NCBI RefSeq assembly: GCF_013425525.1
Contig: NZ_JACCKA010000088.1
Coordinates: 1-64,000, forward strand
Length of the DNA stretch: 64,000 bases
Direction of reading: 5' to 3'
Source of the DNA: Luteimonas salinisoli
GTDB lineage: Bacteria > Pseudomonadota > Gammaproteobacteria > Xanthomonadales > Xanthomonadaceae
Part shown: positions 1,065 through 24,446 of the stretch, piece after piece
Layout of the letters: each line of letters starts with the position of its first letter
Position numbering within the stretch: the stretch's first letter is position 1
Notes under the pieces: generated by a model
What the model saw: the letters and a program-made list of their open reading frames with translations, nothing else
Told to the model about the DNA's origin: nothing
Database searches by the model: none
Made by a program: the position numbers and the translations under genes

Positions 1065-1622
1065 ATGCTCAACGAAATCCACAAGGACGCGCAGACCCGC
1101 ATGCAGAAGAGCATCGAGGCGCTGCGCCACGACCTGACCAAGGTCCGCACCGGGCGCGCCTCGACGGCACTGGTCGACCACCTCAAGGTCAACTACTACG
1201 GCTCGGAGATGCCGCTGTCGCAGGTCGCCAGCATCGCCGTGACCGATGCGCGCTCGCTGACCATCACCCCCTGGGAGAAGCAGATGGTCGCGCCGGTGGA
1301 GAAGGCGATCCTGGCCTCCGACCTCGGCCTGACCCCCAACACCGCCGGCACGGTGATCCGCATCAACATGCCGGCGCTGACCGAGGAGCGCCGCCGCGAG
1401 CTGTCCAAGCACGTCCACAACGAGGGCGAGAACGCCAAGATCGCGATCCGCAACATCCGCCGCGACGCCAACCAGAAGGTCAAGGAGCTGCTGAAGGAGA
1501 AGCAGATCAGCGAGGACGAGGAGCGCCGCAGCGAGGATGAGGTGCAGAAGCTGACCGACCAGGCGATCCGCGACGTCGACGACGTGGTCAAGGCGAAGGA
1601 GCAGGAGCTGATGGCGGTATGA
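1065..1622 (+). CDS. frr: Ribosome recycling factor
   Basis: Frees ribosomes from mRNA after termination, working with EF-G. The 185 residues match the family's usual length. Start MLNEIHKDAQTRM, the central RINMPALTEERRREL and the C-terminal coiled-coil rich in KxxKExLKEKQISEDE are diagnostic. A GGAGCC ribosome binding site precedes the ATG. It is first in a + strand run (uppS, cdsA, dxr, rseP, bamA) that is widely conserved; pyrH, normally upstream, is not seen, the preceding gene being a CDF transporter. Confidence 0.98.
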   Translation: MLNEIHKDAQTRMQKSIEALRHDLTKVRTGRASTALVDHLKVNYYGSEMPLSQVASIAVTDARSLTITPWEKQMVAPVEKAILASDLGLTPNTAGTVIRINMPALTEERRRELSKHVHNEGENAKIAIRNIRRDANQKVKELLKEKQISEDEERRSEDEVQKLTDQAIRDVDDVVKAKEQELMAV

Positions 1623-1627
1623 AGGCC

Positions 1628-1763
1628 GTGATTGGTGATTCGTGATTCGTGATTCGTGATTGGCCAGAAGCCACAGCCTGGAGAGGCCATACCATTGTCT
1701 GAAATGCAGGATTCGCAGGACCGCGCTCCTTCGAATCGCCAATCGCCAATCCCCAATCACGGC
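1628..1763 (+). repeat. Heptad-type palindromic repeat between frr and uppS
   Basis: Left arm 1628-1663 repeats GTGATTC/GTGATTG five times with a 7-base period. The right arm near 1733-1763 is its approximate reverse complement (GATTGGGGATTGGCGATT read on the other strand). The arms are diverged but the layout matches the heptad palindromes at 14.6, 24.3 and 29.9 kb. The right arm is translated as part of the uppS N-terminus. Confidence 0.75.
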
Positions 1764-2510
1764 GCCCTGCCCCGCCACATCGCGGTGATCATGGACGGCA
1801 ACGGGCGCTGGGCGGCGCGCCGTCGGCGCCCGCGCATGATCGGCCATCGCGCCGGCGCGCGGGCCGTCAACCTGTGCATCGACTTCTGCCTCGAGCGCGG
1901 CATCGGCGCGTTGACGCTGTTCGCCTTCTCCAGCGAGAACTGGGGCCGCCCGGAGGACGAGGTGGGCGCGCTGATGAAGCTGTTCCTCAACGCGCTCGAG
2001 CGCGAGGTCGAGGAGCTCGACCGGCGCGGGGTACGGATCCGCTTCATCGGCGAACGCGAGCGCTTCGCCGCGGCGATCCGCGAGCGCATGGACGCCGCCG
2101 AAGAGCGCACCAGCGGCAACGCCCGTCTGCACCTGGTCGTCGCCGCCAGCTACGGCGGGCGCCAGGACATCGCCGCCGCGGCCCGGGCGCTCGGCACGGA
2201 GGTCGCCGCCGGCAGGCTGCGGCCCGAGGACATCGACGAGCGCGCCGTGGGCGCGCGGATGGCGCTGTCCGACCTGCCCGACCCCGACCTGTTCATCCGC
2301 ACCGGCGGCGACCTGCGGATCAGCAATTTCCTGCTCTGGCAGCTCGCCTACACCGAGCTGTGGTTCACCGAGACCCTGTGGCCGGAACTCGATACCGCCA
2401 CGCTCGAGCGGGCGCTGGCCGACTACGCGGCGCGCGAGCGCCGCTTCGGACTGACCGGCGAACAGAGCGGTGCCTTCCCCAACCCCCACTCGGAGCGGGC
2501 CCCGGAATGA
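1704..2510 (+). CDS. uppS: Undecaprenyl diphosphate synthase (UPP synthase)
   Basis: Condenses eight IPP units onto farnesyl-PP to make the C55 carrier lipid for peptidoglycan and O-antigen; cytosolic face of the inner membrane. HIAVIMDGNGRWA holds the catalytic Asp (residue 31 with this start); FAFSSENWGRP and the C-terminal DLFIRTGGDLRISNFLLWQ are family signatures. The frame opens further upstream at a GTG at 1656, but that lies in the heptad repeat; ATG 1704 was chosen, and a TTG at 1695 with GAGAGG eight bases ahead is also possible. The first ~22 residues (including QSPIPNHG) are repeat-encoded. Overlaps cdsA by ATGA. Confidence 0.95.
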   Translation: MQDSQDRAPSNRQSPIPNHGALPRHIAVIMDGNGRWAARRRRPRMIGHRAGARAVNLCIDFCLERGIGALTLFAFSSENWGRPEDEVGALMKLFLNALEREVEELDRRGVRIRFIGERERFAAAIRERMDAAEERTSGNARLHLVVAASYGGRQDIAAAARALGTEVAAGRLRPEDIDERAVGARMALSDLPDPDLFIRTGGDLRISNFLLWQLAYTELWFTETLWPELDTATLERALADYAARERRFGLTGEQSGAFPNPHSERAPE

Positions 2511-3343
2511 CGAGAACACGCGTACTCGCGGCGATGATCATGGCGCCGGTGGCGATCGCCGCGGTGCTGCTGCTGTCCACCCCCTGGATGGTGGCGGCGG
2601 CGGCGGTGCTGTTCCTTGCCGGGCTGTGGGAGTGGTTCCGCCTGGCCGAGATCGACGACGCGCTGGCGCGCGGCGTGCTGCTGCTGGCCAACCTGCTGCT
2701 GATGGTGGCGCTGGTCTGGGCCTCGTCCACCGACGGCAGCGGCTCGCTGGTGCTGTTCAAGCTGCTGGCGCTGCTCGGGCTGGTCTGGTGGTTGCTCGCG
2801 GCGCTATGGCTGCGGCGCCCGCAGTTCGCATCCGACCACGACACCCACGCCCGGGTGCTCAAGCTGGCCGCCGCCACCGCGAGCGTGATCCCCGCATGGT
2901 GCGCGCTGGCGGTGATCCACGCCGGCCAGCCTCACGGCCACCGCTGGCTGCTGATCGCCCTGGCGATCGTCTGGGCCGCCGACACCGGCGCCTACTTCGC
3001 CGGCCGCCGCTTCGGGCGGCGCAAGCTGGCGCCGCGAATCAGCCCGAACAAGACCATCGAAGGCCTGCTCGGCGGCATCGTCGCCGGCGTCCTGGTGGCG
3101 GTGCTGGCGGCGCCGCTGGCCGGCGCCGGCCTGGCGCAGCTGCCGCTGGTGGCGCTGGTGGCGCTGCTGACGGTGCTGTTCTCGGTGATCGGCGACCTGT
3201 TCGAGAGCCTGCTCAAGCGCCACGTCGGCGCCAAGGACTCGGGAACCATGATTCCCGGCCATGGCGGCCTGCTCGACCGCATCGACGGCGTCCTGGCAGC
3301 GCTGCCGGCCTTTGCGGTCGCCCAGATCTGGCTCGGATTCTGA
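2507..3343 (+). CDS. cdsA: Phosphatidate cytidylyltransferase (CDP-diglyceride synthase)
   Basis: Makes CDP-diacylglycerol from phosphatidate and CTP, the branch point of phospholipid synthesis; polytopic inner-membrane enzyme. 278 residues with about eight hydrophobic segments. The C-terminal CDS signature is present: [12 protein letters not shown] followed by [28 protein letters not shown] is also typical. Start overlaps the uppS stop (ATGA), indicating translational coupling. Confidence 0.97.
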
Positions 3344-3443
3344 GCCCGGTGCGGACCTCGACGGCCCCGCGGTTCCGGATGCCCGGCGCCGGCACGGTCC
3401 CGGCGACGGGCCTGTCCGCGGCGCACCCCGCGGGGCTGCGCAC

Positions 3444-4622
3444 GTGACGACTCGGCGCACCGTCGCGGTACTGGGCGCCACCGGCTCGATCGGCGGCTCG
3501 GCCCTGGACGTCATCGCACGCCACCCGCAGCGGCTGCGCGCCAGCGTGCTGGCCGCCGGGAGCAACGTCGATGCCCTGCTGGCGCTGTGCCGCACGCATC
3601 GCCCCGATCACGCGGTCGTCGCCGACGAATCGCGCTTCGCGGCGCTTCGCGACGGCCTGCGCGCGGCCGGCCTGCCGGTCCGCGCCCATGCCGGCGCCGC
3701 TGCCCTGGACGCGCTGGTGGCCGGCGAAGCCTGCGACATCGTGGTGGCGGCGATCGTCGGAGCGGCGGGCCTGGACTCCACCCTGGCCGCGGCGCGCGCC
3801 GGCAAGCGCCTGCTGCTGGCCAACAAGGAATCGCTGGTGCTGGCCGGGGAACTGCTCACCGCGGCGGCGCGCGCCGGCGGCGCCACGATCGTGCCGATCG
3901 ACAGCGAGCACAACGCGATCTTCCAGTGCCTGCCGGAAGGAAGGGTCGACGCGGGCGTGCGGCGCATCGTGCTGACCGCCTCGGGCGGGCCGTTCCGCGG
4001 GCGTTCGCGCGATGCGCTGGTCGCGGTCACCCCCGCACAGGCCGTGGCCCACCCGAAGTGGTCGATGGGCCCGAAGATCTCGGTCGACTCCGCGACGCTG
4101 ATGAACAAGGGCCTGGAGGTGATCGAGGCTCACCACCTCTTCGGCCTGCCCGACGACCGCATCGATGTGCTGGTGCATCCGCAAAGCCTGGTGCACTCGC
4201 TGGTCGAGTTCGTCGACGGCTCGACCCTGGCGCAGATGGGCCTGCCCGACATGCGCACCGCGCTGGCGGTGGGGCTGGGGTGGCCGCGGCGGATCGCCTC
4301 GGGCGTCTGCGGGCTGGACCTGCTGGCCCACGGGCGACTGGATTTCGAGGCCCCCGACCCGCAAGCCTTTCCTTGCCTGGGACTGGCGCGCCAGGCGCTG
4401 CAGGCGGGGGGCACCGCCCCGGCGGTGCTCAGCGCAGCCAACGAGGTGGCGGTTTCAGCCTTCCTTCAGGGCCGAATCGGTTTCCTGAACATTCCCGATC
4501 TGGTCGCCGACGCCCTCGCGGCGCTGCCCGCGGGGGCGGCCTCCACCTTGGAGGAGCTGCGCGCAGCGGACGCTGCAGCCCGTCGCCACGCCCTTTCCGC
4601 CCTCCCGCGCCACGCCCCATGA
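3444..4622 (+). CDS. dxr: 1-deoxy-D-xylulose 5-phosphate reductoisomerase
   Basis: Second step of the MEP isoprenoid pathway: DXP to 2-C-methyl-erythritol 4-phosphate with NADPH. Starting at GTG 3444 gives 392 residues, the normal length, with the NADPH-binding [11 protein letters not shown] right at the N-terminus. [13 protein letters not shown] and [13 protein letters not shown] carry the metal and substrate residues; GGPFRG and [20 protein letters not shown] follow. An open frame continues about 60 codons upstream but encodes nothing family-like. About 100 bases separate it from cdsA. Confidence 0.97.
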
Positions 4623-12865: not shown

Positions 12866-16441
<3,576 letters not shown>

Positions 16442-19904: not shown

Positions 19905-20192
19905 ATGCCGCGCAAACCAGCCCCCGACACCGACCCGACCCCCGGCGTCGCCGACTTCGAACAGTCGCTCGACCAGCTCGAACAGCTGGTGGAGAAGATG
20001 GAAGGCGGCGAAATGAGCCTGGACGAATCCCTGGCCGCCTACGAACGCGGCGTGGGCCTTTACCGGCGCTGCCAGCAGGCACTCGAGCGGGCCGAGCTGC
20101 GCGTGAAGCTGCTCAGCGAACCCGAGCGTCCCGACAGCGCCGAGCCCTTTCCAGGCGCGTCCCGCGCACCCGGCGCTGGCGACGATGCCTGA
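19905..20192 (+). CDS. xseB: Exodeoxyribonuclease VII small subunit
   Basis: Small subunit that coats and regulates XseA in ssDNA degradation. 95 residues; the core [40 protein letters not shown] and [14 protein letters not shown] is typical, with an added hydrophilic tail (about 30 residues). Stop lies inside the start of ispA (8-base overlap), the classic xseB-ispA pair; dxs, often next, is not here. Confidence 0.96.
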
Positions 20193-21171
20193 GACGGTCG
20201 CGGGGCCCGACCTGCAGCCGCGGCTGCAGGCTTGGCGCGGGCGCGCCGACGCCGCGCTCGAACGCGCACTGTTCTCGCTCCGCCACGGCGAGCCGCGGCT
20301 GCTGGCGGCGATGCGCTACGCGGTGCTGCCGGGCGGCAAGCGCATCCGGCCGCTGCTGGTCTACGCGAGCGGCCACGCATTCGGCGCCGCGGACGACGTC
20401 CTGGACGCACCCGCGGCGGCGGTGGAACTGATTCACGCCTATTCCCTGGTGCACGACGACCTGCCTGCGATGGACGACGACGCGCTGCGCCGCGGCCGGC
20501 CGACCCTCCACGTCGCCTTCGACGAGGCGACGGCGATCCTGGCCGGCGACGCGCTGCAGGCGCTGGCCTTCTCGGTGCTGGCCGAATCGCCGGTGGACAA
20601 CGGGCGCCGCGTGGCGATGCTGCGCGAGCTGGCCGGCGCCGCCGGCGCCGACGGCATGTGCGGCGGGCAGGCGCGCGATCTGGCGGCGACGGGAAAGAAA
20701 AGGGGTCAGAGTCATTTTTTGGATCGGGAACCTGAAGCGACCCGGCATCTACCTCCAAAAAATGACTCTGACCCCTTTTCTTCTTTTCCGCCCGCCGATC
20801 TCGAACGCCTGCACGCCATGAAGACCGGCGCCCTCCTGCGCGCGGCGGTGCGGCTGGGCGCGATCGCCGCGGGCGCAGACGCTTCAGCGCGGATGCATCT
20901 CGACCGCTATGCGGCGGCGCTCGGCCTCGGTTTCCAGATCCGCGACGACCTGCTCGACATCGAGGGCGACAGCGCCACCCTCGGCAAGACCGCCGGCAAG
21001 GACGCAGCCCAGGCCAAGGCCACCTTCCCGGCCGTCCTCGGGGTGGAGGCCTCGCGCAGGCGGCTGGCCGAACTGGACGACGAGATGACCGGCGCGCTCG
21101 ACGCGCTCGGAGCGGGCTCCTTCGCCCCGCTGCGGCACCTCGGTCGCCAGGCGATCGAGCGCAGCCACTAG
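20185..21171 (+). CDS. ispA: (2E,6E)-farnesyl diphosphate synthase with palindrome-encoded insertion
   Basis: Makes farnesyl-PP from DMAPP/GPP and IPP, feeding UppS and quinone synthesis. 328 residues against about 299 in E. coli. First Asp-rich motif [16 protein letters not shown] (around residue 92), GGKRIRP, and second Asp-rich motif [13 protein letters not shown] near residue 255. Between [13 protein letters not shown] and [18 protein letters not shown] there are about 34 extra residues (169-202; KKRGQSHF ... KNDSDPF) encoded by an inverted-repeat element at 20697-20780. In E. coli IspA this site is a short loop (AEGKHVPL). The reading frame is intact, so activity is probably kept. Confidence 0.95.
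20697..20780 (+). repeat. GGGGTCAGAGTC palindromic element inside ispA
   Basis: Perfect 24-base inverted repeat: left arm 20697-20720, right arm 20757-20780, each built on AAAAGGGGTCAGAGTCATTT. The 36-base spacer (GGATCGGGAACCTGAAGCGA...) is nearly the same as the spacer of the element at 24310-24395, so both are copies of one dispersed family. Similar words flank REP-associated (RAYT) elements in many proteobacteria, but no transposase is in the window. Confidence 0.9.
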
Positions 21172-23737: not shown

Positions 23738-24277
23738 ATGCGCGGCATCGACGAAGACAGCGGCGAGTACCTCGGCCCCAGCCGCAGCCAGCAGCGGCGC
23801 GAAGCGCTCGGAGTGCTGGAGCTGGGCGAACGGCTTGCGGCACTGTCGCCGGCGCAACTGCAGCAGCTGCCGCTGCCGGAGGCGCTGCTGGCGCAGGTGC
23901 TGGAGACGCGCAGGATCACCTCGCACATCGCCCGCAAGCGCCAGCTGGCGTTCCTGGCCAAGCAGATGCGGCGCGAAGACGACGCCACCCTGCAGGCGAT
24001 CCGCGACGCCCTGGAAGCCGGCGGCGAGGCGGCGCGCCAGGAAACCGCGCTGCTGCACCGCGCCGAGGCCTGGCGCGAGCGCCTGCTCGCCGACGGCGAT
24101 GCGGCGCTGTCCGAATTGCTGGACGCCCACCCGGCCGTGGACCGCCAGCACCTGCGCCAGCTGGTGCGCAACGCGCTGGAAGAACACCGCCGCGGCAAGC
24201 CGCCGCGGGCGCAGCGCGAGCTGTTCCGGCTGCTGCGCGAGCTGCTGGAGCAGCCGGGAATCGCGAATAGGGAATAG
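23738..24277 (+). CDS. darP: Ribosome biogenesis factor DarP (YjgA, DUF615)
   Basis: Associates with late 50S assembly intermediates. 179 residues from ATG 23738, preceded by GGAAGGA; the frame is open 23 codons further upstream. [40 protein letters not shown] and [15 protein letters not shown] are family hallmarks. The last residues (GIANRE and stop) are encoded by the start of a heptad repeat, so the C-terminus may have been rewritten by the element. Divergent from pmbA. Confidence 0.93.
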
Positions 24278-24446
24278 GGAATCGAAAAGCCGAAAAGAAG
24301 GGGTCGAAGAAAAAGGGGTCAGAGTCATTTTTCGGATCGAGATCCTGAATCGACCCGGCATCTTCCTCCGAAAACTGACTCTGACCCCCTTTTTTCCGGG
24401 GCGAGGCGCTTTTTCGAATCGCCAATCGCCAATCTCCCATCACCAG
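24258..24446 (+). repeat. Nested palindromes between darP and tldD
   Basis: Outer element: heptad arm 24258-24287 (GGGAATCGCGAATAGGGAAT...) and an opposing arm 24415-24446 (GAATCGCCAATCGCCAAT...). Inner element 24310-24395: inverted repeat of AAAAAGGGGTCAGAGTCATT (arms 24310-24335 and 24368-24395, one mismatch in the core), with a spacer matching the ispA copy. The inner element appears inserted between the heptad arms. The outer arms encode the end of darP and abut the tldD stop. Confidence 0.88.

Follow-up and report, generated by a model that had tools for sequence, protein, structure and literature searches.

REPs within REPINs, short dispersed doublets in which a conserved unit is repeated in inverted orientation around a spacer, are mainly extragenic, and in SBW25 only 14 of 1,067 REP 16-mers overlap genes (PMC3116915). 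The terminal repeats (TIRs) associated with the TIRYT transposases carry the consensus GGGG[AT][CG]A[CG], or GGGGWSAS, and occur as dimers too (Di Nocera et al. 2013, PMC3733652). Among TnpAREP proteins, subclass 2.1 probably corresponds to TIRYT; the motifs tabled for it are NHVH, WEGR and Y[IV]ELNP, the TIRYTs placed in it are said to have an HTH, and its authors report no REP-like sequences near the gene (PMC6006769).

Palindromes read in frame have been described in Rickettsia, and REPs within genes in several bacteria (PMC3733652, PMC10969869). REPs are described in recBCD, DnaE and RNA helicase genes, many of the REP-bearing genes being DNA repair genes, and two Xanthomonas recB genes carry REPs at about the same site; the available text of that study describes intragenic GTAG and CGTC REPs and names no intragenic TIRs (PMC3733652). 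In Coxiella, the palindromic MITEs called QMITEs sometimes lie in frame in ORFs (PMC5896051).

Here we describe E1, a palindrome within ispA of Luteimonas salinisoli, in a window of 64,000 nucleotides (the whole stretch of DNA analyzed). In structure E1 resembles a REPIN, with two inverted conserved units, a spacer, small size, dispersal and a predicted hairpin. It differs in its tip, GGGGTCAGAGTC, in its low copy number (5 here, and 0–10 complete elements per family genome) and in its location, as 30 of 71 hits in the family are coding by a GC test whereas REPs are mainly extragenic. The description ‘many copies, mainly extragenic’ does not fit five complete copies in this genome, three of which are in genes, and we regard E1 as working like a REPIN without filing it as one.

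The E1 tip fits the TIRYT consensus (GGGGTCAG), and such tips stand in inverted orientation beside some Y1 genes, flanking eight ORFs that have the subclass 2.1 motifs. A C-terminal HTH or DnaA-like domain would be expected of TIRYT proteins, whereas all eight flanked Y1 proteins show only PF01797 by Pfam. Like the Rickettsia palindromic elements (RPEs), E1 is palindromic DNA lying in frame inside unrelated proteins, a likeness of description; RPEs are ~150 bp long (PMC10969869, PMC3733652) and E1 is ~84–100 bp. Compared with the REPs of repair genes (PMC3733652), E1 belongs to another repeat family, recurs across genera and has an exit frame fixed within the family. The QMITEs have other sequences, and recurrence in inter-domain linkers is not described in the available text on them (PMC5896051).

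Gene invasion by REPs has thus been published already. For E1 itself, its exit frame and its recurrence across genera, no account was found in titles and abstract openings of the open-licence literature. There, matches to GGGGTCAGAGTC were all on animals or people, apparently by chance, and a search for GGGTCAGA with palindromes gave none on the subject, by title, among the matches listed.

Results

Structure of the palindrome in ispA

The host gene ispA (20185..21171, + strand) is an ORF of 328 aa for farnesyl diphosphate synthase, of which PF00348 matches residues 37–293 at 6.4e-54. E1 consists of a left arm at 20697..20723 (+), containing GGGGTCAGAGTC at 20702–20713, a 30-nt spacer at 20724..20753 (+), and a right arm at 20754..20780 (−), containing GACTCTGACCCC at 20764–20775 on the + strand. 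The arms are perfect reverse complements of 27 nt each. The original prediction of a perfect inverted repeat at 20697–20780 was therefore correct, although its arms of 24 bases and spacer of 36 bases have to be redrawn as 27 + 30 + 27 over the same 84 bases. Its statement that the element stays in frame and free of stops also holds throughout the 328-aa ORF.

When mismatches are allowed, the inverted repeat widens to 20674–20723 and 20754–20803 (50 nt per arm, 80%). A single RNA hairpin including imperfect outer arms is predicted at 20688..20790 (+), with a folding energy of −57.8 kcal/mol as against −25.9 (sd 3.5) for shuffles (z = −9.1). Third-position GC is 0.93 before the insert, 0.41 in it and 0.91 after it. 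An Rfam scan of the window found no family at the gathering score.

A second copy lies between darP and tldD at 24311..24396 (+), recognized by its arms and by 90% identity to the ispA element over 86 nt. The near-identical copy that had been proposed at this place is thus present, but its arms are imperfect. Among whole-element matches in this genome, it alone closely matches the spacer of the ispA element. Separately, this copy is flanked by two GGGAATC-type stretches (24260–24290 and 24415–24440), as if nested in an element of the type called E2 below, and the first of them encodes the last residues of DarP and its stop (GIANRE).

Exact GGGGTCAGAGTC occurs 12 times in the genome (7 forward, 5 reverse), and a reversed control pattern does not occur. 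The four exact matches in the window are the arms of the two copies just described. With up to two mismatches the window holds eight matches, which is not above chance (mean 6.94; reached by 36 of 100 shuffles), so that the signal is carried by the exact arms only.

Dispersal of E1

The genome has five complete E1 copies, in one of which the spacer contains a run of N; contigs C21 and C91 show a further, imperfect copy at their ends. A search for two tips separated by a gap of 34–64 nt gave matches in 43 of 395 family genomes and in 12 of 54 genera, while the control gave 0. The claim that E1 is a dispersed element is borne out by these counts. In a collection of genomes of named species, the paired tip was found in at least 118 stretches; titles among the matches listed were mostly of Proteobacteria, but also of Gemmatimonadetes, Nitrospirae, Omnitrophica and a few others, with many MAGs.

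Copies within one genome have the tip in common and mostly different spacers. The bases beside the fixed 12-mer differ between copies yet remain complementary. Among 65 family elements (nested copies in loci L143 and L144 excluded), covariation of the arms exceeded all 300 shuffles at 14 of the 17 positions tested outside the 12-mer, with kinship uncontrolled; position 13, for example, is complementary at a frequency of 0.97 as against at most 0.51 in shuffles. As a separate observation, a palindrome with a sister tip (GGGGTCAGGTTCA / TGAACCTGCCCC) lies ~0.8 kb from an E1 copy of this genome (locus L083, contig C81, ~2875–2970).

E1 read in frame within genes

Three of the five complete copies in the genome are in frame within genes, namely ispA, recC and icmF. 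The prediction of an insertion that keeps the frame of its ORF thus holds for ispA and extends to two further genes. In recC, PF04257 spans the insert, and in icmF the element lies between the B12-binding and MeaB domains. The remaining copies are the one between darP and tldD and another that lies immediately upstream of the probable start of a protein we named rhomboid-like by eye.

Our family set comprises 71 pattern hits in 64 stretches, taken from among the places listed and not including the two window copies. On both flanks, a codon-position GC test classes 30 of the 71 as coding and in frame, a number that falls to 24 under a stricter cut; of the 30, L103 and L108 are without homology support. 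All 30 exit in the frame that reads DSDP. Core length was divisible by 3 in 0 of these 30 as against 12 of the 41 other hits (p = 0.0008), and in 0 of 30 as against 11 of 36 when nested copies were removed (p = 0.0006; 66 of the 71 hits). Such in-frame copies are not independent, many being one gene in related genomes.

Outside the family, 20 copies in named records pass the GC test among the matches listed; the exit is DSDP in 15 of them and TLTP in the other 5, each of which falls below the stricter GC cut. Length is divisible by 3 in 5 of those 20 coding copies among the matches listed. Because of the TLTP exits and these lengths, the rule on exit frame and length is firm only within the family.

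Across all loci, 50 elements pass the GC test, and from these 20 coding fragments were picked, of which 18 match a Pfam family above the cut-off and two TPR-like ones do not; gene names beyond Pfam labels are our own reading. Aligned by eye, the same linker is occupied in more than one genus in icmF, hrpA, an HrpB-like helicase and a DinG-like helicase. In recC, E1 is found at the same place in two genomes of one genus (this one and L. saliphila), and in dsbD it lies between DsbD_N and DsbD_TM in both genomes that have it (L089 and L202). Single occurrences were seen in dnaE (two copies in the named record L205), a molybdopterin oxidoreductase (L216) and an ABC-F-like protein (L174). The sites of E1 would be exposed linkers, judging from domain borders and from breaks in PDB alignments.

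A different palindrome, E2, made of GGGAATC repeats, lies in dnaE at 14611..14694 (+) with perfect 31-nt arms (14611–14641 and 14664–14694) and a 22-nt spacer, also in frame. Two palindrome families, each within an essential ORF, had been called unusual. The element in dnaE is indeed present and in frame, but the coincidence is less exceptional than supposed, because in this genome and its relatives several genes hold elements of this kind in frame.

Two observations on other repeats may be recorded here. An icmF-like gene of the genome (locus L081, contig C34, second forward frame, ~1370–4070) has, by eye, in-frame inserts of three repeat families: E1, two inserts of the GGGAATC-type E2, and two of a REP-like repeat that reads TPVGAAHGREA. 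The hrpA linker that E1 occupies holds, in two other genomes (loci L313 and L317 in G254 and G390), another in-frame insert, which reads PPLKKGGRGDLLLARKANPPQSPF and resembles an inverted repeat of a different family.

Turnover in the linkers of icmF and hrpA

In one genus, the icmF stretch was found in six of the seven genomes searched, and its linker contains E1 in three of them, an E2-like (GGGAATC-like) remnant in one, and nothing in two. The E1 arms show 0 differences in 50 positions for each pair of the three species, 24 of these positions being fixed by the search pattern, while of the 34 spacer sites 10, 22 and 23 differ in the three pairs. Only the spacers of G104 and G180 are recognizably homologous (identity at 24 of 34 sites, reached in 0 of 5000 shuffles). 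For this pair, the arms differ from the spacer with p = 4.7e-5, and still with p = 0.003 when the 24 fixed positions are left out (0/26 as against 10/34); of the near upstream third positions, 11 of 97 differ.

Across the three species, all 11 third positions of the spacer are variable, compared with 19 of 97 upstream (p = 1.6e-7). The flank figures are from the near flank. The 900-nt flanks were misaligned in several pairs, with first and second positions differing by 23–25% upstream and by 55% downstream (two pairs). Replacement of the spacer in icmF is well supported by these counts. Vertical descent of one old insertion alone was set aside in view of the unrelated spacer in G158 and of sister species with an empty or E2-filled linker.

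In another genus, hrpA contains E1 in G401, G395 and G378 and a decayed copy of it in G405. Of the 37 genomes with a match 26 were aligned, and E1 was not seen in the remaining 22 of these.

We considered whether in-frame copies are kept rather than merely tolerated, the arms having a role in DNA or RNA, such as an mRNA hairpin or a binding site, or the peptide being a working linker. The strong mRNA hairpin, the unchanging icmF arms beside changing spacers in all three pairs, and the contrast within the G104/G180 pair that persists without the pattern-fixed positions would all be expected then. However, arm third positions are not significantly slower than the flank (1 of 19 variable as against 19 of 97; p = 0.19), and purifying selection on them was rejected on this ground. 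Moreover, the hrpA copy has decayed in a sister genome and is absent from others, and identical arms are also explained by recent or repeated insertion. We therefore consider retention for a function unlikely, and toleration of the insertions the better reading.

Y1 transposases and the candidate mover

A profile search with PF01797 found three Y1 genes in the genome and Y1 matches in 16 of the 18 genomes tested. It found none in G008 or G070, which have six and three complete elements, respectively. From 30 Y1 loci examined, 26 ORFs with full motifs were retained, and L019, L277, L282 and L286 were left out. In 8 of the 26, an 11-base tip is found on both sides of the ORF, inverted, with at most one mismatch. 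The exact 12-base tip occurs in three of the eight flanked loci (L266, L272 and L273), and one (L289) is without even the exact 11-mer.

All eight flanked ORFs read NHVH, WEGR and Y[IV]ELNP, the subclass 2.1 motifs, and so do two unflanked ORFs (L274 and L275). No HTH family was found in the eight by Pfam at E up to 0.1, PF01797 being the only match; a diverged HTH could be missed, and we do not claim membership in TIRYT. The subclass-2.1-like Y1 gene of L. salinisoli itself is partial, cut by the end of contig C40, with variant tips nearby that continue as ACATTTC and not CATTTTT. A guess that E1 is linked to a Y1/RAYT transposase is supported to the extent that the inverted tip or a near variant flanks Y1 genes of some relatives and that the partial gene lies near a variant tip.

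The bases next to the tip were compared between transposase loci and elements in 12 genomes. They agree independently in G271 and, over six bases, in G068, and G142 is close. In G260 and G183 the agreement is trivial, as the element adjoins the gene, and in seven genomes (G000, G005, G126, G149, G401, G262 and G023) the bases disagree.

A Y1 gene lies 5–8 kb from the E1-bearing icmF in G104, G271, G278, G010 and G260, which represent three genera. The distance is 16.7 kb in G005 and 22 kb in G023, and the two are on different contigs in G000; these eight genomes make up the comparison, and G158, G180, G210 and G240, which also have icmF copies, were left out. Five of eight genomes with a Y1 gene within 10 kb of icmF would have a chance probability of ~1e-7 if the genomes were independent, but they are related, and because of this relatedness an inherited neighborhood suffices to explain the proximity as well.

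Could another enzyme move E1, the Y1 genes near similar tips being bystanders or distant relatives of the mover? Such a situation would account for a tip context that independently agrees in only 2–3 of 12 genomes, for the lack of a Y1 match in two genomes that hold several elements, and for the absence of a tip from the loci of three of the five icmF-neighboring Y1 genes (L268, L270 and L275). On the other hand, it leaves unexplained the inverted tips on both sides of eight Y1 ORFs, and the published TIRYT repeats have the consensus GGGGWSAS to which the tip conforms (PMC3733652). A different mover thus appears distinctly unlikely, and a Y1 enzyme resembling subclass 2.1 is the preferred candidate.

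Fate of the IspA enzyme

E1 was predicted to lie after the GGQA motif and before the conserved KTGALLRAA helix, and to add about 34 residues. The position is confirmed, as the stretch from GGQA to KTG is 49 aa long here as compared with 21–23 aa in 21 of the 23 same-genus genomes measured (37 aa in G005 and 67 aa in G023), but the net gain comes to 26–28 aa. Three of 30 ispA loci, in which the search motif is absent, were left out of this measurement; one of them, L024 of the same genus, has an ispA without insert. PDB alignments are interrupted at the insert, between query residues 171–173 and 203–204 (three listed of 72 matches). In the loci of G005 and G023 (L022 and L023), the loop was observed to be ~15 and ~45 residues longer without any E1 peptide.

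Conservation of the insertion across the family, which would have spoken against a mobile element, was not seen, the insert being absent from the other members of the genus examined. Nor was a second ispA, which might have left this copy dead, found in the genome; besides the gene and element stretches, only two pieces of a protein with 39–43% identity were matched (contig C47).

What we take to be the two Asp-rich motifs are both intact in the IspA translation. IspA is most likely still active, carrying a disordered bulge of 26–28 residues, and we presume so because the host loop varies in length in two other genus members as well. That the insertion inactivated ispA, farnesyl diphosphate being made some other way, is very improbable: a compact enzyme has indeed received 26–28 residues, with codons rare here (AGT in 1 of 110 Ser and TTT in 1 of 75 Phe; 2648 codons of window genes), but the reading frame is preserved in translation, the same loop varies naturally in length, no second ispA was found, both motifs are retained, and the completeness of the genome is given as 100.

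The predicted fold of the insert (−57.8 kcal/mol, z = −9.1) might suggest that ribosomes skip the hairpin or that it is cut from the RNA, but frame and length class should then be indifferent, yet 30 of 30 family coding copies exit as DSDP, 0 of 30 have a core length divisible by 3, and the decayed hrpA copy remains in frame, which makes an untranslated hairpin scarcely credible. An artefact of assembly or sequencing, for which one could point to a draft of 95 contigs and to repeats being prone to misassembly, is just as scarcely tenable with two differing copies on one contig and in-frame copies in other genomes and named records, such as recC of Luteimonas saliphila.

Discussion

The best explanation, to which we assign a probability of about 0.73, is that E1 is a REPIN-like non-autonomous mobile element that is moved by a Y1 transposase similar to those of TnpAREP subclass 2.1 and is tolerated in linkers. 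As a unit, E1 would consist of two inverted copies of the conserved tip AAAA-nn-GGGGTCAGAGTC-nn-TTTT around a spacer of ~30 nt that is mostly specific to each copy. It may move, or may once have moved, as single-stranded hairpin DNA with the help of a transposase of the Y1 (HUH) type, close to TnpAREP subclass 2.1 (TIRYT). In coding sequence, insertions would survive if their length keeps the frame, if the frame read is hydrophilic (with the exit DSDP) and if the protein linker is exposed. In ispA, E1 would have landed in the length-tolerant loop that separates the GGQA motif from the KTG helix.

The disagreement of tip context together with the missing HTH counts against this explanation, as do G008 and G070 without a Y1 match and the exits other than DSDP outside the family. 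An integron attC site was also considered and set aside, since a fixed 12-mer with Y1 neighbors fits better.

A more tentative idea, which we hold to be rather unlikely, is that linkers are a standing home in which a resident Y1 enzyme keeps refilling or exchanging hairpins, so that arms stay identical and the spacer peptide is replaced faster than neighboring third positions. If this is true, variable peptides would be generated naturally within conserved enzymes, ispA included.

With identical arms on the one hand and replaced spacers on the other, the persistence of such an element becomes testable. Linkers that are empty, filled with E1 or filled with another repeat in sister species provide a natural series for examining the effects of a peptide segment on IcmF, HrpA, RecC, DnaE and IspA. 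The finding would extend in-frame mobile palindromes, best known in Rickettsia, to free-living Gammaproteobacteria, as a habit that recurs there and may be linked with one class of single-strand transposase.
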